Shown in pieces: positions 388-17,278 of a DNA stretch of 34,368 nt. Under the pieces are notes generated by a model. The model was not told the origin of the DNA. It made no database searches and was given only the letters and a program-made list of their open reading frames with translations. The translations under genes were made by a program, and so were the position numbers. The number at the start of each line of letters is the position of its first letter. Position 1 is the stretch's first letter. Source of the DNA: Bacteroidales bacterium (lineage in GTDB: Bacteria > Bacteroidota > Bacteroidia > Bacteroidales > UBA10428); assembly GCA_016926375.1 (NCBI GenBank), contig JAFGOR010000192.1:1-34368 (forward strand). The letters are read 5' to 3'.

Positions 388-460
388 TTGCCAACACCCG
401 GTCATACGCAACCTGCCTGCCTGCCGGCAGGCTGTGCATACCACCGAACGTTAACTGCAA
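388..460 (+). repeat. attC-like structured spacer a (hairpin core type)
   Basis: This 73-bp spacer opens with TTGCCAAC and closes with GTTAACTGCAA; the outer arms pair (TTGC with GCAA, AAC with GTT). Between them is an imperfect hairpin with GGTCATACGCAACCTGCC on the left and GGCAGGCTGTGCATACC on the right, plus unpaired bases on one arm, around a CCTGCCGGCAGG palindrome. The same core recurs at 1013-1085 and 6081-6162. The layout resembles an integron attC site (AAC...GTT outer pair, extrahelical bases), although the termini do not match RYYYAAC/GTTRRRY exactly. Confidence 0.6.
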
Positions 461-475
461 CCGCAGAATAGAAAG

Positions 476-994
476 ATGAAAAAAGCTTTTACAATATTAT
501 TGGTTTTTACCTTGGCTTGGTCTAATTCGATAGCTCAAAATAATAATGAGGAATTATTATCAGGTTTAATTAGGCTGATCAATCTAATCGCGCAATTTAA
601 AGCATCACCAGTTGATAATAATGTATATATTGATAGTCTAAAGATTAAAATGCAAAACGATTGTCATATTCTTTTGCTAAAGAAAATATCTGATTACAGA
701 TTGATGCACAATATATGGCCTCAAAGTATTCAGAATCTTGATATCTATGAAGATAGTACATTTTCAGGTTGCATTAATAACCTATCAGATATTGACACTT
801 TTAAAGTAAGTCAAGATAGTTTATTCTATAATTACCCATTGAAAACAGTTGATAATATGATAATTCCACTGACTTTATGCATAGGTAAAGATAATGAGTT
901 GAATATTTTATATATTGGTAACTACAGGACTGAGACTGAACAAATGGAAATGGACAAAAGAAAAAGCACAGAAGAATTTACAATTGAATGGTAA
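476..994 (+). CDS. secreted orphan protein, 172 aa
   Basis: The frame starts with a clear Sec signal peptide (MKKAFTILLVFTLAWSNSIAQ) and has no lipobox, so the product is probably periplasmic or exported. The mature part begins with an asparagine-rich stretch and helical segments. It contains the motif DYRLMHNIWPQS and then beta-like stretches such as PLTLCIGKDNELNILYIGNY. Two cysteines flank the middle region. I recognise no family. It is the only gene between spacers a and b, on the same strand as its neighbours, and is AT-rich. The start follows the spacer end by about 15 nt, leaving almost no room for its own promoter, so transcription may come from upstream as in cassette arrays. Confidence 0.75.
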   Translation: MKKAFTILLVFTLAWSNSIAQNNNEELLSGLIRLINLIAQFKASPVDNNVYIDSLKIKMQNDCHILLLKKISDYRLMHNIWPQSIQNLDIYEDSTFSGCINNLSDIDTFKVSQDSLFYNYPLKTVDNMIIPLTLCIGKDNELNILYIGNYRTETEQMEMDKRKSTEEFTIEW

Positions 995-1012
995 GATAGA
1001 AAATATGCGGCA

Positions 1013-1085
1013 GCAGCTAACATGCGGTCATATGCAACCTGCCTGCCGGCAGGCAGGCTGCGCATACCGCCACCGTTTGTGCACA
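1013..1085 (+). repeat. attC-like structured spacer b with 20-bp palindrome
   Basis: This spacer is also about 73 bp. It begins GCAGCTAAC and ends GTTTGTGCACA, and its centre is the perfect 20-bp palindrome CCTGCCTGCCGGCAGGCAGG (1038-1057). The flanking arms GCGGTCATATGCAA and GCGCATACCGC extend the hairpin with a few unpaired bases. Its left end is complementary to the start of the preceding gene unit (GTTAACTGC at 450-458), with one wobble-type difference. Its right end is complementary to the end of the following unit (TGTGCACAAC at 2944). The inner core matches spacers a and e. Confidence 0.6.
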
Positions 1086-1141
1086 ATTAAAACGAACATT
1101 CTACATAGCTAAAACATAAAAAATCATTAAAATAAGTAACA

Positions 1142-2938
1142 ATGAGAAAAGCAATTGTAATTATAGGATTGGTATTTTTCTTCCAGGCATTTTCATTTGG
1201 TCAGTTAGAGAAAGAAATAAACTCATCGGTAAAAAAAGTAACTGTATATACGCAAGGAGCTCAAATTGAGAGAGAAGCAACGGTTTCTTTGCTGCAGGGA
1301 AAAATGGTTTTAAAATTAGTTGGACTTTCTCCTTATATTAAAAAAGAAAGCATTAGAATTGATGGGGACGGTTCCTATTCTATACTTAATGTACAGCACC
1401 AAAATGACTATTTAAAAGAATTAGATAAAAATAAAGAAATCGAATCCTTGAAAGACAAGATCGAAGATCTTCAGTTTAAAGTTGAAGATGAAGGGACTTG
1501 GATAAAAATCATAAAAGATAAATTGGACTTTCTTAATGTAAATAAAGAAATCACTGGTAAAGAACAAGCGTTAAACCCAGAAACGTTTAAAACCTTAAAT
1601 ACAATTTATGGGAGCAATATAGAAACATTGAATTTAGAGATGTTGAAGAAGCAGAGATTAGTTAATGATTATCAAAAAGAGATTAACAAACTTAATAATC
1701 AACTGAATTCTTTAAATAGCAAATCTGATTTACCATCGGGGACAATAATAATTACTATTGAAGCGAAACAAACAAAAACCTCGAAGCTTAGTGTTAACTA
1801 CTTAGTTGATAATGCTTCTTGGTATCCTTCATATGATATTAGATTTATGGGAGTCAATAAACCACTTACTGTAACATATAAGGCTAATATCAAACAAAAT
1901 ACAGGTATTGATTGGAATGATGTCAATCTTGTGCTGTCTACAGCCAAAACCAATATATCCGCTCAAATTCCAGAATTTGTACCATTCTACCTGCAATTTT
2001 ATTATCCGGAAATTTCACAAGCTTTACAAGGAAGGGCTGCAGGTATTCAAATATTGGAAGATTCGGGTATTCCGGGCGCTGAATCTGAAATCAGAATTAG
2101 AGGCATCAGTTCAATTAATGACAAAAGCGAACCCTTATATGTTGTAGATGGAGTGCCACAAAGCAATATATCGTCTATAAATCCTAATGATGTTGATAAA
2201 ATTGAAGTTTTAAAGGATGCCTCTGCCACAGCCGTATATGGTTCAAGAGGTTCCAATGGTGTTCTTCTTGTAACGACAAAACAGAACAAAGAAAAATCTT
2301 CAATCCCATTAACAATTACATCGAAAAGAGAAACTTCAAATGAGTACATCGTTGAAGCCCCTCAAAAAATCCAATCAAATGATAAAAATGTAAGTGTTGG
2401 TTACAAAGAAACTGATCTAAATGCGATATTTGAATACCAATCAATTCCCGGTTTATCTGAAAATGTATTTCTAATTGGAAAGATAGTTGATTGGTATAAA
2501 GCCGAATTTATTGATGGAGAAGCAAATGTGTACCTCGAGAATTCTTTTGTTGGCAAATCTTCAATAAATACAAAACAGTTCAAGGATACATTAGAAATTT
2601 CATTTGGAACTGATAATAATATAAGTATAAAACGAGAAAGACTAACAGAGTTCACTGAAAATCAACTAATCGGTTCTAATAAAAAGGAAACAATAGGATT
2701 TAAACTTACACTTAGAAACAATAAGTCATACCCGATAACGGCAAAAATAATTGATCAAATACCAGTTTCAACCACAAAAGATATTCAAGTTGAAACAATT
2801 GATATATCAGGTGGAAAAATGGACACGGATTCTGGTAAAGTTGTTTGGGAGATAGCTTTAAATTCAAATGAATCTAAAGAACTAATAATCAAATATTCAG
2901 TAAAATATCCAAAGGATAAAAAAGTGTTTATTGAATAA
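1142..2938 (+). CDS. DUF4140/DUF4139 (MuiA-like) protein with inserted TonB plug domain
   Basis: This 598-aa secreted protein has a signal peptide (residues 1-20). A DUF4140-type N-terminal domain (about 25-90, containing [13 protein letters not shown]) is followed by a coiled-coil hairpin (about 92-195). A DUF4139 beta-domain starts near 200 ([15 protein letters not shown]). Around residues 294-380 that domain is interrupted by a SusC-style TonB receptor plug module ([46 protein letters not shown]). It then resumes (about 400-595). No barrel follows the plug, so this is not a transporter. MuiA-type proteins are envelope-associated but poorly understood. It is the sole gene between spacers b and c. 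Confidence 0.85.
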
Positions 2939-2943
2939 TTAAC

Positions 2944-3084
2944 TGTGCACAACAATATAAGTATAAAAAAATGCCAAGACAGTAGGTTATTCAAGGTTTG
3001 TAGCCCGCATCAACTTTTGTGTAGCTTGACAGGTAACCGCCCGTAATCGGCAACTTTTAATACAACCAACCGTTTGGCTGCAAC
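2944..3084 (+). repeat. attC-like spacer c (divergent core)
   Basis: This gene-free interval of about 140 bp lies between two + strand genes. It begins TGTGCACAAC and ends GTTTGGCTGCAAC. The left end is nearly the complement of the GTTTGTGCACA that opens the preceding gene unit. Its outer TGCA, AAC and GTT segments can also pair with its own right end. The inner sequence does not carry the CCTGCC/GGCAGG core of spacers a, b and e, so it is assigned by its ends and position only. Confidence 0.4.
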
Positions 3085-3127
3085 CGACAAAAAACAGACT
3101 ATTTAATAACCAAATAAACTTTTATTT

Positions 3128-4465
3128 ATGAAACTTAGATTTATCTCCACTTTTATTCTTGTATGTTATACTGGAATAATGTTCTCACAACAGTTCGAAC
3201 TCTTAAAAATCGATCCGAAATTTGAAATTTCAATGAAAAATGATCTAGCCATAGATAAAATGAATAATCTATGGGTTGCTACTGACAAAGGTGTTTTGGA
3301 ATTTGTAAATAATAAATGGAATTTGTATCAAAATGATTCGATTAAATTTCAACATATTGACAAATTGTTTATTGATTCACAAAATCGAATATGGTGTATA
3401 AGTTATCTCCACAACACCTTATCTAAATCATATTTTGGAGGACTATATATGATAGATAACGAAAGGAATATCATTGATTTTTCAGATAAGTTTGAAAGTA
3501 TTTTTATAACTGATATAAATGAAGATGCTGAAGGAAAAATATGGGTTACAACCGGTAAGATGCTAGCGGGTGTTACGAATAAAAAGAATCACACATTTAA
3601 TACCTCCTTAGATATGATAAAAGGTATTCCTATAACAGATATAGCAAGTGATATTGTTGCTAAAAATGCACCTGGTGGGGTTTATAAATTTGATGGATCC
3701 AATTGGAATTGTATGACATCTGACGCAATGATACCGATAAAATTTGTAAGTAAAATAATAAAAGGAAATGATGCATTATTTTTTTGTGAAGAACGCGGAG
3801 GGAAAGAAAGATTAATTAAATATAGTGGGAATGAGTTTATAGACATATCATCCAAAGGTAATTATCCGGGTGATGAAGTACATGATATTGTATCAGACTG
3901 TGATGGAGATTTATGGATACTTACTGCAGACAATAGATTAAAGGTTTTTAAAATTGACCGGAATAATACAATAAATGAGTTTTATAAAATGAATCCATAT
4001 AGATTAGGGATAGGCCGTTTTTATAAATTTGGTGACCATTTATGTCTAACATACTTAGGTACATTTATTGAATTTAACAAGACAACAAATACTTGGATAT
4101 GTCCTCAAAAACAATCAAATCAAAACATTAAATATTTTATAAAAGATGTAACAATGAGTTCTGATGGTTCCTATTATATAGCTGATGGAAAAGGAATTCG
4201 CATATATAAGGACGGAAGCTTTATTGATACAAGGATTTTTGATAAAATAAAAATTGGAATGTTATTCTCTGTTCAAAATGATAAGATATTAGTTGGTACA
4301 AAAGATCATGGGTTATATTTATTGAATCGAGGAAAACTAGAAAAAATAAACAAAGATTTGCATGATCAAGACATGCCGCTAGGATATTCAAATATAAAAT
4401 TAACACAAGGTAATGTTTCATACTTTTTAACAACAAATGGAATCCTTAAAGTTGTAATTGACTGA
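3128..4465 (+). CDS. secreted beta-propeller protein with Reg_prop-like repeats
   Basis: This 445-aa protein has a signal peptide ending near SQQ (MKLRFISTFILVCYTGIMFS). Repeats of the form D-x-x-N/G-x-I/L-W-x-x-T recur: DKMNNLWVATDKG, SQNRIWCIS, DAEGKIWVTTGK, DCDGDLWILTADN, then weaker copies such as DGSYYIADGKGIRIY. These match the two-component-regulator propeller repeats that form the sensor of hybrid histidine kinases in Bacteroidota. Here the frame stops without the Y_Y_Y domain, membrane segment, kinase or T9SS tail, so it is a free-standing propeller, possibly a binding or sensing protein. It is AT-rich and is the only gene between spacers c and d. Confidence 0.75.
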   Translation: MKLRFISTFILVCYTGIMFSQQFELLKIDPKFEISMKNDLAIDKMNNLWVATDKGVLEFVNNKWNLYQNDSIKFQHIDKLFIDSQNRIWCISYLHNTLSKSYFGGLYMIDNERNIIDFSDKFESIFITDINEDAEGKIWVTTGKMLAGVTNKKNHTFNTSLDMIKGIPITDIASDIVAKNAPGGVYKFDGSNWNCMTSDAMIPIKFVSKIIKGNDALFFCEERGGKERLIKYSGNEFIDISSKGNYPGDEVHDIVSDCDGDLWILTADNRLKVFKIDRNNTINEFYKMNPYRLGIGRFYKFGDHLCLTYLGTFIEFNKTTNTWICPQKQSNQNIKYFIKDVTMSSDGSYYIADGKGIRIYKDGSFIDTRIFDKIKIGMLFSVQNDKILVGTKDHGLYLLNRGKLEKINKDLHDQDMPLGYSNIKLTQGNVSYFLTTNGILKVVID

Positions 4466-5175
4466 ATACATTTTAGATATTAGAGTTTGACTTGATAAAT
4501 AGAAAACACCAGGTGCCAACAATATAGGATTTAAGGCATAGTTGAGCCCAAAAAAAGGCAGTAGGAAAAATGCCCCACTGCCTCAAATCATCGAACTGAG
4601 AAATGAATCCCCACGCTCAATTGTGTTTTCCCAAAGGGATGGCTTGGCCATAAATCGTGTTGGGCTAAACCCTTGCAAATCAGCAGTAACATATAGGGGG
4701 ATTGAACCGGGAGGGTATACTTTTTTCAAAAAAAATAAGGCTATAAATTATCTCTTTTATGCGGTAACCGGTTTCATAAAAACGATGCCACTGGTTTTTC
4801 ATTCGGAGACAAAGCGGACAGTAGGGCTCGCGATAGTTCAGGATCAGTTGCGGGATTTTATTCCATACAGTGTCTTTCTTTTCATAGCATTGATTTGAGC
4901 TTCTCCCAAATGGTAAGAAATTGAAAACGTTTACTGCTGGTAAAGTATATGAACTAACTAAAGAATATTCACAAACCCTAACAGCGTTTTTATTGTATTT
5001 GGACTGATGATGTTTTGGCAAGCTCAATGTTTTTAAGTAGTTTTATAACAAGGGACAATAAAAAGGCTTCAAACTTTCAAACAAACAAATACGCAAACCG
5101 TTTGGGTTCAATTACGAGAACTGCAAGATTGTTTATCTTTAATTTGCTAATTACTCATTTATTAAAGCTTTAAAA
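4466..5175. other. 710-bp interval with no convincing gene; degraded accessory DNA
   Basis: The interval starts with an AAC-type end (GGTGCCAAC, 4512-4520) and ends near a GTT-type end (GTTTGGGTTCAA, 5100-5111), which could be the edges of spacer d or of a decayed cassette. ORFs 4542-4898 (+) and 4680-5027 (-) overlap on opposite strands and neither shows a recognisable domain or credible composition. A short + strand tail (KTFTAGKVYELTKEYSQTL) ending in TGA near 5007 looks like a protein fragment, but I cannot place it. A hairpin at 4550-4582 faces the minus strand. Confidence 0.5.
4550..4582 (-). terminator. possible intrinsic terminator on minus strand
   Basis: Read on the minus strand, GGCAGTGGGG and CCTACTGCC form a stem (GGCAGT with ACTGCC plus extra G-C pairs) around a T-rich loop and run straight into TTTTTTT. 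No firm minus-strand gene lies upstream, so it may be a relic of a lost gene. Confidence 0.45.
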
Positions 5176-6057
5176 ATGAATAAATTTAGATTACTCACCT
5201 TTGTTTTATTTATAGGGCCAATTGTTCTATTAAGTTGCGAAAAGGAAAAATCAGATAATTGTAATTTACTAGGTTATGGTCTTGAATCTGATGGGAGATA
5301 TCAAATTACTTTTGATTATCGCAATAACAAAGCATTTTTGCGGATAGACTATGGACTAATATGCAATATATCTACTAATCCGCTTAATAATTGCCAGGTT
5401 TCTGATTTTCCTGGGGCAATAGACAGTGCTGTATATGTAGGGGGCTTAATTAAGATACTATATAAATATTTAGGAAACCATATACTCATGGAGCATGATG
5501 AATTTGAATATGATGGTCAAAGAATTGTTGAAAAAAGAACCTATGATCACTATAATCGTGAAGAACCTGTTCTGGCAAGAGTTCAGGATTATAAATATAA
5601 TAATAGCGGATTATTGAATGGTATTGATTACATGATTTATCTATCACCAGGAAATACATCTTATATAAGCGATACACTATTTAAGTATTTTTACTACGAT
5701 GACTTTAAAAATCTGGTAAAAACAGTTAACGTTAGATACCTTACCAATGCTAATGACAGTACTCAAGCCAATTATGATATCGAGGAATTTTTAGATTATG
5801 ACAATATGATAAATCCTTTTTATGGGATGCCATTTCAGGATCTATTCAAAACTTGTTATTATGGAGACGGCATATCAATCTATAGTTCACCTACTCCTTC
5901 GGTATTTGTTTATACTTCGCTGTCGAAGAATAATTTCCTTAGATATAAGCAAACACGCATTTTAAATGGAGATACAATACTGCAAACAGAATTGAGTCGA
6001 TCCTTCGAATACAATACAAATGGGTATCCAATTATGGGGAAATACTCGTGTGAATAA
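5176..6057 (+). CDS. lipoprotein with YD/RHS-like repeats (DUF4595-like)
   Basis: This 293-aa protein has a lipoprotein signal (MNKFRLLTFVLFIGPIVLLSC; lipobox LLSC with Cys at position 21) and the charged EKEKSDN that often follows. The body carries loose repeats of the type Y-D/N-x2-G/K-x-L: FEYDGQRIVEKR, YKYNNSGLLNGIDY, YYDDFKNLVKTV, FEYNTNGYPIMGK. Such repeats are typical of DUF4595 and YD-repeat lipoproteins of Bacteroidota, which form beta-rich surface or periplasmic structures of unknown role. It is AT-rich like the other array genes. It sits upstream of spacer e and downstream of the degraded 4.5-5.1 kb interval. Confidence 0.75.
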   Translation: MNKFRLLTFVLFIGPIVLLSCEKEKSDNCNLLGYGLESDGRYQITFDYRNNKAFLRIDYGLICNISTNPLNNCQVSDFPGAIDSAVYVGGLIKILYKYLGNHILMEHDEFEYDGQRIVEKRTYDHYNREEPVLARVQDYKYNNSGLLNGIDYMIYLSPGNTSYISDTLFKYFYYDDFKNLVKTVNVRYLTNANDSTQANYDIEEFLDYDNMINPFYGMPFQDLFKTCYYGDGISIYSSPTPSVFVYTSLSKNNFLRYKQTRILNGDTILQTELSRSFEYNTNGYPIMGKYSCE

Positions 6058-6080
6058 GAATATTTCAGAACAAAATACTA

Positions 6081-6162
6081 TTGCCAACACCCAGTCATAC
6101 GCAACCTGCCTGCCCTGCCTTTCGGTATGCAGGCTGTGCATACCGCCGGCCGTTGACGGCAA
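6081..6162 (+). repeat. attC-like structured spacer e (hairpin core type)
   Basis: This 82-bp spacer begins TTGCCAAC and ends GTTGACGGCAA; the outer arms pair (TTGCC with GGCAA, AAC with GTT, three unpaired bases between). The core GTCATACGCAACCTGCC and GGCTGTGCATACC matches spacers a and b, with a longer, less regular central loop. It is the rightmost copy and may be the end of the array, because the next intact gene has ordinary chromosomal neighbours. Confidence 0.55.
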
Positions 6163-6252
6163 GTGTAAAAGACAGACGAGCAGACAGATACGATATTGAC
6201 AAAATTAAAATAAGAAAGGATTTAGCTTTTTGACAGGACAGGGCATATTTGA

Positions 6253-6521: not shown

Positions 6522-7295
6522 ATGGAAATAGTAATAATTTGTTTGGCAGCCTTTTTTACTGCCGTTCTTACTTTTTTTTCAGGTTTTGGACTGGGAACTA
6601 TTTTAGCTCCTGTATTTGCAATATTCTTTCCTATTGATATTGCAATTGCACTAACTGGCGTGGTGCATTTTTCAAACAATCTTTTCAAAATTGCTTTGGT
6701 TGGTAAAAATACAGATAAAACCGTATTGATGCGGTTTGGTATTCCTGCCATTTTAGCATCATTTGCAGGTGCATGGCTTTTACTGAAAATTACTGTTCTT
6801 CCTACTTTGTTTCAATACCAGTTATGGGGTAAGGATTTTGAGGTAACGCCAGTTAAATTAATTATTGCGGTATTGCTGATAGTCTTTTCTATTCTTGAAA
6901 TTTCACCATCATTCCGGACAGTGCAATTTGGGAAAAACAAACTTGCATTGGGCGGCGTGTTAAGCGGATTTTTTGGTGGTTTATCGGGCATCCAGGGAGC
7001 AATACGCAGTGCATTTTTAATAAAAAGCGGACTAACAAAAGAAGCATATATTGCCACGGGTGTAGTTATCGCCTGCTTAGTTGATTTTACAAGACTTTCG
7101 GTATATGCTTCACGGTTTACTTCGGCAAACCTGCACGAAAACCTGACACTTTTAATTTCGGCAACCCTTTCAGCAATTGCAGGGGCATATTTTGGCAAAA
7201 AATTGCTTAAAAAAGTCACTTTGAGGAGCATCCAACTCATCGTTGCGGTAATGCTCATACTCATTTCAATTGCATTGGGTATAGGATTAATTTAA
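6522..7295 (+). CDS. TauE/SafE family membrane permease, 257 aa
   Basis: This is an integral membrane protein with about eight hydrophobic segments and the two glycine-rich repeats of the family: FFSGFGLGTILAPVFAIFFP near the N-terminus and LGGVLSGFFGGLSGIQGAIR in the middle. TauE/SafE proteins are predicted exporters or importers of sulfonates, sulfite or other organic anions; the substrate here cannot be read from sequence. I chose the ATG at 6522 (MEIVIICLAAFF) over the TTG at 6492, because a TAATTTTG promoter-like box lies at 6487-6494 within the extended frame and the ten added residues are not typical. Degraded genes flank it on both sides. Confidence 0.85.
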   Translation: MEIVIICLAAFFTAVLTFFSGFGLGTILAPVFAIFFPIDIAIALTGVVHFSNNLFKIALVGKNTDKTVLMRFGIPAILASFAGAWLLLKITVLPTLFQYQLWGKDFEVTPVKLIIAVLLIVFSILEISPSFRTVQFGKNKLALGGVLSGFFGGLSGIQGAIRSAFLIKSGLTKEAYIATGVVIACLVDFTRLSVYASRFTSANLHENLTLLISATLSAIAGAYFGKKLLKKVTLRSIQLIVAVMLILISIALGIGLI

Positions 7296-8221: not shown

Positions 8222-10021
8222 TTAGCTCTTCCCAGCTCTTTTCCGATCGTGTTCGCTCAGCAGGATTTTACGCAACCTGATTGAAAGCGGCGTGATTTCG
8301 ACGTATTCATCTTCCTGTATGTATTCCAGGGCTTCTTCAAGGCTGAATTTCACAGGCGGGATGAGCTTTGCCTTCTCATCACTTCCTGAAGCCCGCATGT
8401 TGGTTAGTTTTTTTGACTTGGTGACGTTAAGCACCAGGTCGCCTGCCCGGCAATGCTCACCTACAACCTGTCCGGCATACACTTCTTCCTGAGATTCCAC
8501 AAAAAACTGCCCGCGATCCCTGAGTTTATCAATGGCGTAAGCAAAGGCAGTGCCAGTTTCCATGGCAACAAGTGAGCCATTAACACGGCGCTCTATAGTT
8601 CCTTTAAGCGGCTCGAAATCCTTGAATCGGTGCGACATCACTGCCTCGCCTGCAGTTGCTGTGAGCAGGTTGCTCCGAAGCCCGATGATACCACGTGAAG
8701 GTATGTCAAATTCAAGATGAATACGATCACCGCGCCTTTCCATCATAAGCATTTGCCCCCGGCGTGCAGAAACCATTTCAATAGCCTTGCCGGAATATTC
8801 TTCAGGGAGGTCGATGTACAAAATCTCCATGGGTTCGCAGGGTTCTCCGGCAATGGTTTTGATGATTACTTTGGGCTGGCCGACCTGGAGTTCATAACCT
8901 TCGCGTCGCATGGTTTCAATGAGAATGGATAAATGCAGCACACCGCGTCCGAAAACAATGTGGGAGTCAGGCGTTCCTCCCTGCTCAATGCGCAGTGCCA
9001 GGTTCTTTTCCAGTTCCTTATCAAGCCTTTCTTTCAGGTGCCGTGAGGTTACGTATTTGCCTTCCTTACCATAAAACGGCGAATCGTTGATGGTGAAAAG
9101 CATACTCATGGTAGGCTCGTCCACATTGATTGATTCGAGTGCCTCTGGTTCTTCAAGCTCCGCAATGGTGTCGCCAATATTGAAGCCTTCAATGCCAACA
9201 AGAGCACATATATCTCCGCATGCTACAACAGGAACCTTACGGTAAGCCAAACCTTCATAAACCGACAATTCTTTGATGCGCGTACGAATAATGCTTCTGT
9301 CGCGCTTTACCAGTGAAACGCCCATGCCTTCTTTTAATTCTCCCCGATGCAATTTACCAATAGCAATCCGGCCCAGGTAATTGGAGTAATCGAGGTTGGA
9401 GATCAGCATCTGGGGCGAACCTTTTATAATAACAGGTGGTGGTATATGCCTTACAATGGCATCCAGGAGCGGGGTGATATCGCCGGTGGGCTTTTTCCAG
9501 TCATCCGACATCCAGCCGTTTTTGGCAGAACCATAAATGGTGGGGAAATTCAACTGGTCATCTGTACCGCCCAGGTTGAACATCAGTTCAAATACCTGTT
9601 CCTGAACTTCCTCGGGACGGCAGTTGGGCTTGTCTACCTTGTTAATGACCACAATGGGTTTTAGCCCGAGATTGAGCGCTTTCTGCAATACAAAACGGGT
9701 TTGAGGCATGGTGCCCTCAAAGGCATCTACCAGTAGCAATACACCGTCGGCCATATTTAACACACGTTCAACCTCGCCTCCGAAATCGGAGTGTCCGGGT
9801 GTGTCAATGATGTTGATTTTGATACCGGAATAAGTTACCGATACATTTTTTGCCAGGATGGTGATACCTCTTTCCCGCTCCAGCTCATTGCTGTCCATCA
9901 CCAGTTCACCAGGGCTCTCGTGAGCCTTGAAAAATTTGGTTTGTAAGAGAATTTTATCTACCAGGGTGGTCTTTCCATGATCTACATGGGCAATAATCGC
10001 TACATTCCGGATATCCTTCAT
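8222..10021 (-). CDS. typA: ribosome-associated GTPase TypA/BipA
   Basis: This 599-aa translational GTPase is nearly the usual length (about 600-610). The G-motifs are intact: AHVDHGKTT (11-19), RGITI (51-55), DTPGHSDF (73-80) and NKVDK (127-131). EF-G-like domains II, III and V follow, then the TypA-specific C-terminal domain ending near [14 protein letters not shown]. TypA acts on the 70S ribosome or on 50S assembly under stress and cold; that role is known for the family. The gene stands alone, divergent from the lipocalin gene. A TATCTTTG box on its strand 20-27 bp upstream of the ATG supports a short leader and this start. Confidence 0.97.
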
Positions 10022-13570: not shown

Positions 13571-16500
13571 ATGAAAGCAATTTTAAGAAAGCACCTTCTG
13601 ATTCTTGCACTTACCGGTCTTTCTTTATCCGGCTTTTCCCAGTTTTACAACGGCCATCAGATGAGTTTTGGCAAGAACCGGGTTCAGTTCAATGAATTTG
13701 TGTGGTCGTTTTACCGCCATGAAAAATACGACGTCTACTTCAACGAGGACGGGAAAAATCTGGCTGACTATACTGCTGACTATGCCGAACAAATTGTACC
13801 CCGCGTGGAGGCCTTTTTTGATTATACCATGGAAAAGCGCATACTTTTTGTGGTATACAACAGGCTCACAGATTTCAGACAAAGCAATATCGGGCTGGTT
13901 ACCGGAAAGGATGAATACAATATTGGGGGTACTACCAATGTAAGCCGCAATAAGGCATTTCTTTATTTCGAAGGAGATTTTGACAAGTATGACCAGCAGA
14001 TTGTTGCTGCCATTACCCGTATTGTGGTTAACGAGATGCTCAATGGCTCTGACCTGCTCGACAATGTGACCAGCTCAACGCTTATTAATGTTCCCAAATG
14101 GTATAGTGAGGGACTGGTGGCATACCTTTCAAAACAATGGGACATTGAAACGGAAAACGTGGTTAAAGATGGCATTGTAAATGGCCGTTACGAAAAGTTC
14201 AACCGGCTTACCGGAGATGACGCGGTTTATGCAGGTCATTCCTTCTGGAAATATATCGCAGACACTTACGGGGAAACGGTAATTCCCAATATCATTTATC
14301 TCACCAGCATCAGTAAGTCGATTAAGTCGGGTTTCTTAAATGTGCTGGGATTTAATCTGAAAGATCTTACCTACGAATGGACAGGTTATTATATGAATCT
14401 TTTTGCTGACGATGCAGGTGCTCAGAAAACTCCTGATTCCGGAAAAATGCTGAAGAAAACCAGGAAAGGAGTTCGGTATGAACATATTAAAATCAGTCCT
14501 ACAGGTAATTACATTACCTATGTAACCAATGAGATGGGCTTATACAGGATATGGTTGCTGGATGTAAAAACCGGTAAGAAAAAGAAAATCATCAGGCGGG
14601 AACACAGGCTGGAACAGATTATCGATTACAGTTATCCGGTTATGGCATGGCATCCCTCAGCCAGGTACATTGCATTTATTACTGAAGAAAAGGGAGGATT
14701 GAAACTCTACTATTACAACATTACCGAGAAAGAGCTTGCCGTAAGAAATTTCCTGTACTTCGACAAAGTGCTCAGCTTTTCATTTTCCAATGACGGTTCA
14801 AAATTTGTTTTTTCCGGGACACGGTTGGGGAAAACAGATATTTATGTTCATGACATTGCATCGTCAACCAACCTGCAGATTACCAATGATATTGCCGATG
14901 ATTTGGATCCCCGGTTCATTGATGGGGACCGGAAGATTATTTTCAGCTCAAACCGTTTGTCGGATACCCTTTCAGCTGTCATCGGAACACAAGAAAGAGC
15001 AATTACCAATGAACTCTATATTTATGATTTTAAAGGCCGTTCAGATGTGCTGATGCGTTTGAACGACAACACCAGCAGTAATAATTCCAACCCCGAAGAA
15101 ATTGGAGAGAACAAGTTCATTCAGCTGAGTGATGACCTGGGAACAGTAAACAGATATATTTCAACATTCGACAGTACTGTCAGTTTCATTGATACCGCCA
15201 TTCATTACCGCTATTTTGCCGAAACGGCGCCTTTGACACAGTTTTCCAGAAACATCCTGGAGCAGGATTATCAGAAATCTCCGGGATTGGTTGCAGATGT
15301 TATATTCAACGAGGGCCGGTATAACATTTACATGAATCCGCTTGATGAACTGAATGTGATAACTGAAAAAACAGAAGTGACACCGTCACAAAAAGCACGC
15401 AGAAAGATTTGGTCGGCAAAGGATAGTATCCGCAATGTGAAACAGAAAGTTATACCGATTACCCGGGTTACTGACAACACGGTCATATCAGGTGTTGATA
15501 CCATCACACTTGAGGGCAACGCAATTGATGTGAATAATTATATTTTTGAAATAGAGAAGCTCAATTCATACAACGAGCAACTTAAGAATAACCAGCTCAA
15601 ACTCACTGCAGACACTTCAGAAGATGCCAGGCCCAAGATTCGGCTTTATCAGCCTGTATTTTACCAAAACAACATGGTGGCGCAGATTGATTTCAACTTT
15701 TTGAATGCATCATACCAGGCTTTCACCGGGGGTGCGTATTATTTTAATCCCGGTTTCAACGTATTGCTTAAAATAGGCGCCAACGATTTGTTTGAAGATT
15801 TGAAAATAACCGGGGGCGTGCGTTTGTCGCCCGATTTTGATGCCAACGAATACCTGTTAAGTTTTGAAAGCCTAAAGAACCGGCTTGACAAGATGTTTGT
15901 CTTCCACAGGCAGGCGTTTAAGAATGAAGGTTATTATGAAGGTGTATCTTTTGTAATCAAAACCCATTCACACATATTTTCTTCTATACTCCGTTACCCG
16001 CTGAATCAGGTGAAGTCATTGTCAGCTACCCTTTCCTACCGCAATGACCGTACTGTATTCCTTTCAAGCAACCCATATCCAAATCCTAACAATTTCCTGA
16101 ACACACCCAATATATACAGGAACTGGATCGGCTTAAAGCTCGAATATGTTTTTGACAATACCCGGCCGTTGGGGATTAACCTGTATTCAGGTACCCGGTA
16201 TAAACTGTTTGCTGAGGTTCAGGAGCAGGTTGACAAGGGGTTGAGTGAACTGGTAGTTTTTGGTGCTGATTTCAGGAATTATACGCGTTTGCACCGGACC
16301 TTGATTTGGGCCAATCGTTTTGCCTGGAGCTCTTCTCAAGGTTCGAGCCGGATCATTTATTATTTGGGGGGTGTGGACAACTGGATCAATTTCGGGCAAC
16401 GGCCACCTTATTTTACCCCTTTTAGTGAAATTCCCATTGATGAAACACAGAATTATGCATTTCAGGCTGTTGGTACCAACATGCGCGGATTTTCACAAAA

Positions 16501-16873
16501 CATTCGGAACGGGAATAATTTTGCTGTTTTTAACAGCGAAATCCGATTCCCTGTATTCAAATACCTGGCAAATTACCCTTTAAGCAGGAGCTTTTTTGAA
16601 AATTTTCAACTGGTTGGTTTCTTCGATGTGGGTTCAGCCTGGTCAGGTCCCACACCCTGGTCGAGTCACAACGCTTATGATAATGAAATCATTCAGCAGG
16701 GGCCATATAAAATAATAGTCGACTCAAATCGAGATCCGATAGTTGCCGGTTATGGTTTTGGCATACACTCGCAACTACTGGGATATTTTATGAGATTCGA
16801 CTGGGCCTGGGGTATCGAAAACAGGGAAATTGTGCCCCAGGTGTTTTATTTTTCCATGAGCCTTGATTTTTAA
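13571..16873 (+). CDS. peptidase-MA-like / TolB-propeller / outer-membrane beta-barrel fusion
   Basis: This 1100-aa protein has a signal peptide ending near GFSQ. The N-terminal domain (about 30-270) looks like a gluzincin Peptidase_MA domain: RILFVVYNRLTDFRQ and PKWYSEGLVAYLSKQWD fit its fold. However, the expected HExxH helix reads VVNEMLNGSD, so both zinc histidines are missing. Next come TolB/PD40 propeller repeats (about 300-480; ISPTGNYITYVTNEMGLYRI, FSNDGSKFVFSGTRLGKTDI, DPRFIDGDRKIIFSSNRLSD) and a linker. The C-terminal third (about 690-1100) has long amphipathic strands and ends in SMSLDF, with the terminal Phe typical of OM barrels. Related proteins are annotated as TolB-like translocation or surface-antigen proteins. 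It is probably first in a small operon. Confidence 0.8.
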   Translation: MKAILRKHLLILALTGLSLSGFSQFYNGHQMSFGKNRVQFNEFVWSFYRHEKYDVYFNEDGKNLADYTADYAEQIVPRVEAFFDYTMEKRILFVVYNRLTDFRQSNIGLVTGKDEYNIGGTTNVSRNKAFLYFEGDFDKYDQQIVAAITRIVVNEMLNGSDLLDNVTSSTLINVPKWYSEGLVAYLSKQWDIETENVVKDGIVNGRYEKFNRLTGDDAVYAGHSFWKYIADTYGETVIPNIIYLTSISKSIKSGFLNVLGFNLKDLTYEWTGYYMNLFADDAGAQKTPDSGKMLKKTRKGVRYEHIKISPTGNYITYVTNEMGLYRIWLLDVKTGKKKKIIRREHRLEQIIDYSYPVMAWHPSARYIAFITEEKGGLKLYYYNITEKELAVRNFLYFDKVLSFSFSNDGSKFVFSGTRLGKTDIYVHDIASSTNLQITNDIADDLDPRFIDGDRKIIFSSNRLSDTLSAVIGTQERAITNELYIYDFKGRSDVLMRLNDNTSSNNSNPEEIGENKFIQLSDDLGTVNRYISTFDSTVSFIDTAIHYRYFAETAPLTQFSRNILEQDYQKSPGLVADVIFNEGRYNIYMNPLDELNVITEKTEVTPSQKARRKIWSAKDSIRNVKQKVIPITRVTDNTVISGVDTITLEGNAIDVNNYIFEIEKLNSYNEQLKNNQLKLTADTSEDARPKIRLYQPVFYQNNMVAQIDFNFLNASYQAFTGGAYYFNPGFNVLLKIGANDLFEDLKITGGVRLSPDFDANEYLLSFESLKNRLDKMFVFHRQAFKNEGYYEGVSFVIKTHSHIFSSILRYPLNQVKSLSATLSYRNDRTVFLSSNPYPNPNNFLNTPNIYRNWIGLKLEYVFDNTRPLGINLYSGTRYKLFAEVQEQVDKGLSELVVFGADFRNYTRLHRTLIWANRFAWSSSQGSSRIIYYLGGVDNWINFGQRPPYFTPFSEIPIDETQNYAFQAVGTNMRGFSQNIRNGNNFAVFNSEIRFPVFKYLANYPLSRSFFENFQLVGFFDVGSAWSGPTPWSSHNAYDNEIIQQGPYKIIVDSNRDPIVAGYGFGIHSQLLGYFMRFDWAWGIENREIVPQVFYFSMSLDF

Positions 16874-16909
16874 TAAAATGCCATCAACAACAATCTGGTA
16901 AATAAAAAC

Positions 16910-17278
16910 ATGTCAGTTAACGAAGTAATCGTACTTATCCTGATCGGCCTTTCAGCCGGAATTGTTTCCGGTTTACTGGGCGTTGGAGGCGCCATTATCA
17001 TTGTTCCGGCTCTTATTTTCTTTGTGGGTTTGACTCAACATCAGGCGCAGGGAACCAGCCTGGCAATCCTGGTGTTTCCGATAGGTTTTCTGGCCTTTTG
17101 GAATTACTACAAGCAGGGTTATGTTAATTTTAAAATTGCGGTTGTTGTTATGCTGGCTTTTTTTATCGGAGGTTATTTTGGATCGTTGCTGGCAGTGCGG
17201 GTGCCCGAAAAAGTTTTGAGAATAGCATTTGGAGTATTGATTGTTGTTATGGGTTTGAGAATGATAATTAAAAAATAG
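16910..17278 (+). CDS. half-size TauE/SafE membrane protein, 122 aa
   Basis: Four hydrophobic segments and the family glycine motif SAGIVSGLLGVGGAIIIVPA match one of the two repeats of TauE/SafE permeases. The family is usually about 250 aa, as in the copy at 6522. The protein ends cleanly after GLRMIIKK, and I see no second half downstream in any frame, so it looks like a stable short form that would have to dimerise rather than a truncation. It starts 36 nt after the large OM protein gene and ends 14 nt before the amidohydrolase, which suggests one transcript. The substrate is unknown. Confidence 0.85.
   Translation: MSVNEVIVLILIGLSAGIVSGLLGVGGAIIIVPALIFFVGLTQHQAQGTSLAILVFPIGFLAFWNYYKQGYVNFKIAVVVMLAFFIGGYFGSLLAVRVPEKVLRIAFGVLIVVMGLRMIIKK

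Follow-up and report, generated by a model that had tools for sequence, protein, structure and literature searches.

Does a chain of genes and folding sites in a Bacteroidales contig consist of mobile cassettes of the integron kind, and which recombinase would have moved them? The question is raised by the window, a stretch of 34,368 nt that makes up an entire contig (G000:C242) of a draft genome of 294 contigs and 86% completeness, and whose first base already lies inside the array. An earlier note on this DNA had proposed that the first bases of each unit are complementary to the unit's own last bases, as in cassettes that have been excised. The letters and coordinates on which the proposal was built are all correct.

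Sites and cassettes of the window

All features described here lie on the plus strand. The window opens with the remainder of a cassette (cassette 0, 1–450) that is truncated by the contig end and has its R'' at 382–395 (GCACTATTGCCAAC). This R'' is the left edge of recombination site A (382–464), which continues with L'' GGTCATACGC, L' GCATACC and a GTT at 450–452; with RNA parameters its bottom strand folds at -41.9 as compared to -24.7 for the top strand. Cassette 1 (451–1075) runs from the TT of site A to the G of site B and holds a gene for a protein of 172 aa without a Pfam family (476–994). Site B (1008–1089; R'' at 1008–1021, CGGCAGCAGCTAAC; GTT at 1075–1077) is followed by cassette 2 (1076–3072), whose gene (1142–2938) encodes 598 aa with DUF4140 and DUF4139 and a TonB-receptor Plug domain within. 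The splitting of DUF4140/DUF4139 by the Plug domain of a TonB-dependent receptor is an odd fusion as cassette cargo. Site C (2940–3086; R'' at 2940–2953, GTT at 3072–3074) is of a 120-nt type and was scored at 32.9 bits (E 0.0009) by a covariance model, R3, that had been built without it.

The gene of cassette 3 (3128–4465), for a two-component regulator propeller protein of 445 aa, is followed by a stretch (4512–5107) that had been described as one site. This description did not hold. The right part forms a site of its own, D (4969–5114), with an R'' ending in AAC at 4980–4982, a GTT at 5100–5102, a spacing of 120 and a stem score of 12.5, to which model R3 gave 17.0 bits only (E 1.1). The left part (4512–4520) belongs to a probable damaged site, D1 (4507–4671), recognised by eye, in which the R'' ends in AAC at 4518–4520 and matches no start, and L'' GATTTAAGGC pairs with GGCCATAAATC, which precedes a GTT near 4659. 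Cassette 4 (5101–6152) carries a gene for a probable lipoprotein of 293 aa without a Pfam family (5176–6057) and leads into the final site, E (6075–6166; R'' at 6075–6088, GTT at 6152–6154), whose start has no partner end further downstream in the window.

Sites A, B and E share one layout: each consists of an R'' ending in AAC, L'' GGTCATACGC, a palindromic loop, L' GCATACC and GTT, and in each the bottom strand folds far better than the top strand. The same type with a longer loop is present in two arrays of a genome of the same family (G015), where it adjoins sites of a second type, about 120 nt long, AAC-NNNNGTATA ... CATACNNNNACC-GTT. Model R3, which represents this second type and from whose construction the window was left out, also recovers sites from other members of the family. 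It consists of the arms with an uninformative middle and worked on loci; two other models, R1 (tied to the subtype of the window) and R2 (too weak), were dropped. The palindrome CCTGCCGGCAGG(CAGG) found in the loops of A, B and E (400–440, 1040–1065 and 6108–6130) also occurs alone at dozens of places in genomes of the family, and a dispersed hairpin may have spread into these loops. An Rfam search of the window gave no match.

Complementarity of cassette ends

The start of each unit was compared, over 11 variable bases, with every AAC trinucleotide up to 9 kb downstream. Unit 1 opens with GTTAACTGC (450–458) and ends with GCAGCTAAC (1013–1021), as had been reported, and the best partner of its start is its own end at 1019, with 8/11 bases and a runner-up of 6. 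For unit 2 the own end at 2951 is again the best partner (10/11; runner-up 8). The ends of this unit (GTTTGTGCACA at 1075–1085 and TGTGCACAAC at 2944–2953) had been called complementary save one base; they are complementary, but the odd base is an extra T in the start rather than a point mismatch (GTT[T]GTGCACA as compared to GTT-GTGCACA). An intact cassette is composed of one gene, on the same strand in each unit, and a folding site, the last 14 or so bases of which are complementary to the first bases of that cassette.

The later units fit less well, as the earlier note had also observed (GTTTGGCTGC at 3072 with GGTGCCAAC at 4512–4520; GTTTGGG at 5100 with TTGCCAAC at 6081–6088), and for units 3 and 4 no good partner of the start exists anywhere (best 6–7). 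The end of cassette 4, which is the R'' at site E, is unlike its own start and similar to the R'' of site A. Because unit 4 and cassette 0 have similar ends, a chimeric site or a deletion is likely, and we propose that such events left units 3 and 4 with ends that do not match. The simplest reading is that the window is the tail, or distal part, of an array, in which the intact cassettes 1 and 2 are followed by two units whose ends no longer match. With four units, a permutation confined to the window is weak, and suggestive rather than conclusive, as 2 of the 24 pairings are as good as the one observed.

Over a larger set, 13 units from the window and from genomes of the same family were compared. 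Of the 10 bases that follow GTT, own ends agreed at 8.2 and foreign ends at 3.7; the observed sum was reached in 0 of 200,000 permutations. The sites of these units had been found by covariance models and stem searches, mainly through the AAC/GTT triplets and the inner arms, and the tested bases are largely independent of them; sites A, B and E and two similar sites of G015 were found by a repeat search, by model R1, which did contain a few R bases, and by eye. When attI starts and plasmid units were added, the cassette ends of the latter being chosen by eye, the result was 0 of 100,000 permutations. One Chryseobacterium unit of this enlarged set was off by one base and was excluded from the analysis of 29 units. 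The within-unit against between-unit comparison is strongly positive from 13 to 29 units, and the two ends of a unit act as R'' and R' do when they stem from a single excised cassette, in agreement with what had been claimed.

The complementarity runs longer than the note had stated. It extends over about 14 nt, with position 11 as a constant A/G exception, and the full-length ends of unit 2 read GTTGTGCACAATTAA and GTTGTGCACAGTTAA. Position 4 is identical in all 29 units, and in 26 of them the start has A at position 11 where the complement of the end has G. Reading six of the starts with an additional T behind GTT gives the best fit; all six belong to the family of the window (including G015b, G015c and G008a). 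This T (window 1075 and 3072; L036, L037, L146) is unpaired in the circular site, and the chains scanned in other families showed none. As a positive control, true IntI arrays of the phylum display within-unit complementarity over 8–9 bases, without the position-11 rule.

The recombinase, attI and their spread

No integrase lies on the contig that carries the sites. In the window's own draft genome, a search of the contigs found neither IntI nor the recombinase that accompanies related arrays; the genome as assembled holds two Xer-like recombinases only. The simplest reading is that the array of the window, as assembled, is orphaned.

A tyrosine recombinase of 282 aa from a related genome (G014) has homologues with 40–49% identity in about half of 23 genomes of the family. 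The 3' end of the gene mostly lies 70–400 bp from a contig end, which is expected if a repeated array comes next. In one genome (G008) gene and array are joined on a single contig (L146), with the recombinase at 4711–5490, attI at 5849, a site at 6929, a cassette and a further site at 9250; the end of this first cassette matches the start on the attI side at 13/14 positions. The catalytic residues of these recombinases are retained. The IntI-specific I2 insertion of about 28 residues is missing in 13 of the 13 that were aligned with IntI, whereas the IntI of G018 has it. They reach 182–227 bits with the integron-integrase model TIGR02249, below its cut-off of 265, and score near or above the cut-off of the XerA-type model NF040815. 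The nearest solved structures by sequence are XerA/XerC-like proteins. In a quick, midpoint-rooted tree with some long branches, in which finer placement is unsure, 32 IntI form one clade (100), all 15 recombinases fall outside it, and IntI and recombinases together are set apart from Xer (98). On this tree the recombinase group lies between Xer and IntI. Several members (L208, L209, L213, L215, L218) have N-terminal extensions with repeats of a W(S/H)xxxxxWxxP-like motif.

A canonical IntI is present in a genome of the same family (G018; 422 bits, above the cut-off) and in one of the same order (G029). Both were considered as the recombinase of the arrays and dropped, as no array adjoins them. 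These canonical genes of the family and order, found without a recognisable array, lie at 636–1595 (L015) and near 16300–17160 (L016), and one adjoins an IS110-type transposase fragment. Conversely, IntI was not found in some genomes that have both array and recombinase (e.g. G370, G342).

At a threshold of E <= 1e-55, a homologue of the recombinase is present in 177 of 395 sampled Bacteroidia genomes (45%). tblastn searches against plasmids returned homologues in Rufibacter, Pontibacter, Chryseobacterium, Arenibacter and Persicobacter, among others. Downstream of the gene, closed plasmids of Rufibacter tibetensis, Pontibacter kalidii and Chryseobacterium sp. SNU WT5 carry small unrelated genes, most of them co-directional, in units with complementary ends. 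IS110-family transposases lie within the cassette arrays of three plasmids (L226, L229, L232), and it is possible that IS110 elements target the folding sites. On the minus strand of one G015 array (L037, G015:C288), a cassette carries a RelE/HigB-like and HTH gene pair, likely a toxin-antitoxin.

Fifteen stretches of 12–20 kb each, downstream of the recombinase in well-assembled genomes, were scanned automatically. In 12 of them a cassette start that has a matched end and A/G at position 11 was found 30–160 bp past the gene, and nine hold chains of two to seven cassettes; control loci gave 45 pairs in 712 kb, with chains in 2 of 38 strands. In one genome (G431) seven cassettes follow in succession, every one with 10/10 matches. 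The pattern AACCGTTTGTGNNCAA occurred over the 395 genomes at background level only, and an exact-pattern scan of 85,000 genomes returned two Paenibacillus matches, which were taken for chance.

In related genomes and plasmids the array begins 30–380 bp downstream of the recombinase gene at an attI-like ATATAAACAA|GTT, and this sequence or a near variant is found in many loci. It is not visible in the window, which opens inside the array. Two Chryseobacterium plasmids from different species offer a natural comparison of the insertion point: a stretch of 1,190 bases, which takes in the recombinase and about 107 bases past it, is 96% identical between them, and from the base after ...AAACAAGTT, directly behind that GTT, the two are unrelated. 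The earlier note had placed the crossover at the G/TT of each right end. The break of identity between the plasmids supports a crossover at G|TT, and A|GTT would fit it equally and indistinguishably, the G being common to attI and attC.

Strand asymmetry, proposed mechanism and relation to known systems

The mismatches in the stems of these sites are strongly one-sided. In the L arms, 59 are G-T wobbles on the bottom strand (A-C or C-A on the top strand) as compared to 4 of the opposite kind, and in the R arms bottom-strand wobbles outnumber the opposite by 36 to 3. Mismatches are few in true IntI arrays, which have an additional L'' base instead (67 vs 2). In the window, sites A, B and E carry such an extrahelical L'' base, as do two G015 sites; most sites of the 120-nt type are without it (10 gaps in one direction and 7 in the other). 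When the circular site was reconstituted and folded with DNA energy parameters, the bottom strand was more stable in 17/18 cases; for the window, unit 1 gave -26.1 for the bottom strand and -21.3 for the top strand, and the two strands of unit 2 were practically equal (-16.7). The one-sided wobbles are a candidate signal by which the folded strand might be chosen without I2.

We consider it likely that the window is the distal array part of an integron-like system of mobile cassettes in Bacteroidia, served by a recombinase without I2 and orphaned in its own genome. An integron-like mode of working is suggested by the anatomy of the units and by comparison. The recombinase would excise a cassette as a circle, in which the rejoining of R'' and R' gives a single site with a long stem. 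Of this site the bottom strand would then fold, its G-T wobbles facing A-C mismatches of the top strand, and the folded strand would be recombined with attI at G|TT, so that cassettes would enter in a single orientation. As the recombinase is without I2, it would have to recognise folded sites by another way than IntI. In the genome of the window it may have been lost or be missing from the assembly. Two of the window's four complete units do not display the complementarity rule, which speaks against this reading, as do the mere two Xer-like recombinases of its own genome, the occurrence of canonical IntI in the same family (G018) and order (G029), and the choice by eye of the plasmid cassette ends. 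It also counts against it that I2 has been reported to enable the use of single-stranded sites by IntI (PMC7790495), so that a recombinase without I2 may not act on folded single strands. For the broader proposal the evidence appears to us evenly balanced; under it, Bacteroidia would commonly have a second, so far unrecognised class of integron, with a tyrosine recombinase that never acquired the I2 helix and yet acts on folded single-strand sites, strands being chosen by G-T wobbles rather than extrahelical bases. Such a class would be a sister or precursor state of the IntI integrons.

The most serious competitor keeps the same recombinase and cassettes but makes double-stranded or cruciform DNA the substrate, with the strand bias of the stems serving some other purpose. 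The lack of I2, the XerA/XerC-like proteins as closest solved relatives and the acquisition of single-strand activity by IntI together with I2 (PMC7790495) would all agree with it. However, the distance from R'' to R' of 55–200 nt is too long for an ordinary two-arm core unless folded, and the one-sided wobbles in both arms and the stabler bottom strand fit a single folding strand. We regard this alternative as rather unlikely.

It is improbable that the window is a classical CALIN, with attC cassettes captured by a canonical IntI now or once present in the lineage. The IntI genes of G018 and G029 would suit this account but have no such array adjoining. The additional L'' base of A, B and E is that of classical attC, but sites of this type share arrays with the 120-nt type (L036, L037), and arrays adjoin the insertion-less recombinase in IntI-free genomes. 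True IntI arrays of the phylum likewise obey within-unit complementarity, but over ends of 8–9 nt, without the position-11 rule and with extra L'' bases in place of wobbles. Hardly credible at all is chance, or a dispersed hairpin repeat of the terminator or REP kind flanking genes, with the complementarity a by-product of its palindrome. The CCTGCCGGCAGG core of A, B and E is indeed palindromic and scattered alone in these genomes. However, the complementary stretches lie at opposite gene ends, are unit-specific and are lost on permuting units, and the chains begin at one place adjoining the recombinase.

A search of the open literature, with preprints and subscription journals outside its reach and a prior description therefore possible, found no description of such arrays in Bacteroidia. 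Surveys have turned up hardly any integrons in Bacteroidetes; in the one with IntegronFinder 2, the only complete integron of the phylum was that of Salinibacter (PMC9024848). Since search tools target the IntI-specific domain, and the recombinase occurs in 45% of the sampled Bacteroidia genomes, a large pool of cassettes may be overlooked. With this system the origin of integrons could also be put to the test, by asking whether a Xer-type recombinase without I2 can use folded single-strand sites, contrary to the I2 hypothesis.

The earlier note had likened the units to integron cassettes. The behaviour of the ends agrees with that comparison, but by the defining feature of the integrase the system is not a member of the integrons, and the array lies downstream of the gene with strand choice encoded otherwise. 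Tandem one-gene cassettes in one orientation, a GTT junction and a stabler bottom strand are shared with classical integrons and CALINs, as are, with the integrons, outer arms R'' and R' derived from one cassette and an attI insertion point adjoining the recombinase. Unlike in classical integrons, the recombinase is without I2 and outside the IntI clade, and attI is downstream of its gene. The ends are about 14 nt long with the fixed A/G position 11 and, in the window's family, often an extra T; there is no consistent extra L'' base, and the strand difference is written as G-T wobbles. The integron integrases of Treponema are IntI. Their 'reverse orientation' genes likewise lie opposite to the array (PMC9668308), but the insertion is absent from the recombinase described here. 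With scores near or over the cut-off of NF040815, annotated in NCBIfam as 'site-specific tyrosine recombinase/integron integrase', the recombinases resemble the 'Integron-like' simple tyrosine recombinases of Smyshlyaev et al. 2021 (PMC8138268) whose insertion-less members are not linked, in the passages covered, to cassette arrays, attI or attC-like sites. Finally, in XerCD-using IMEX such as the CTX phage, a Xer-type enzyme without I2 acts on a folded single strand (PMC7790495), as would be the case here. IMEX are without cassette chains, whereas the arrays described here have no dif site and are adjoined by a dedicated recombinase of their own.
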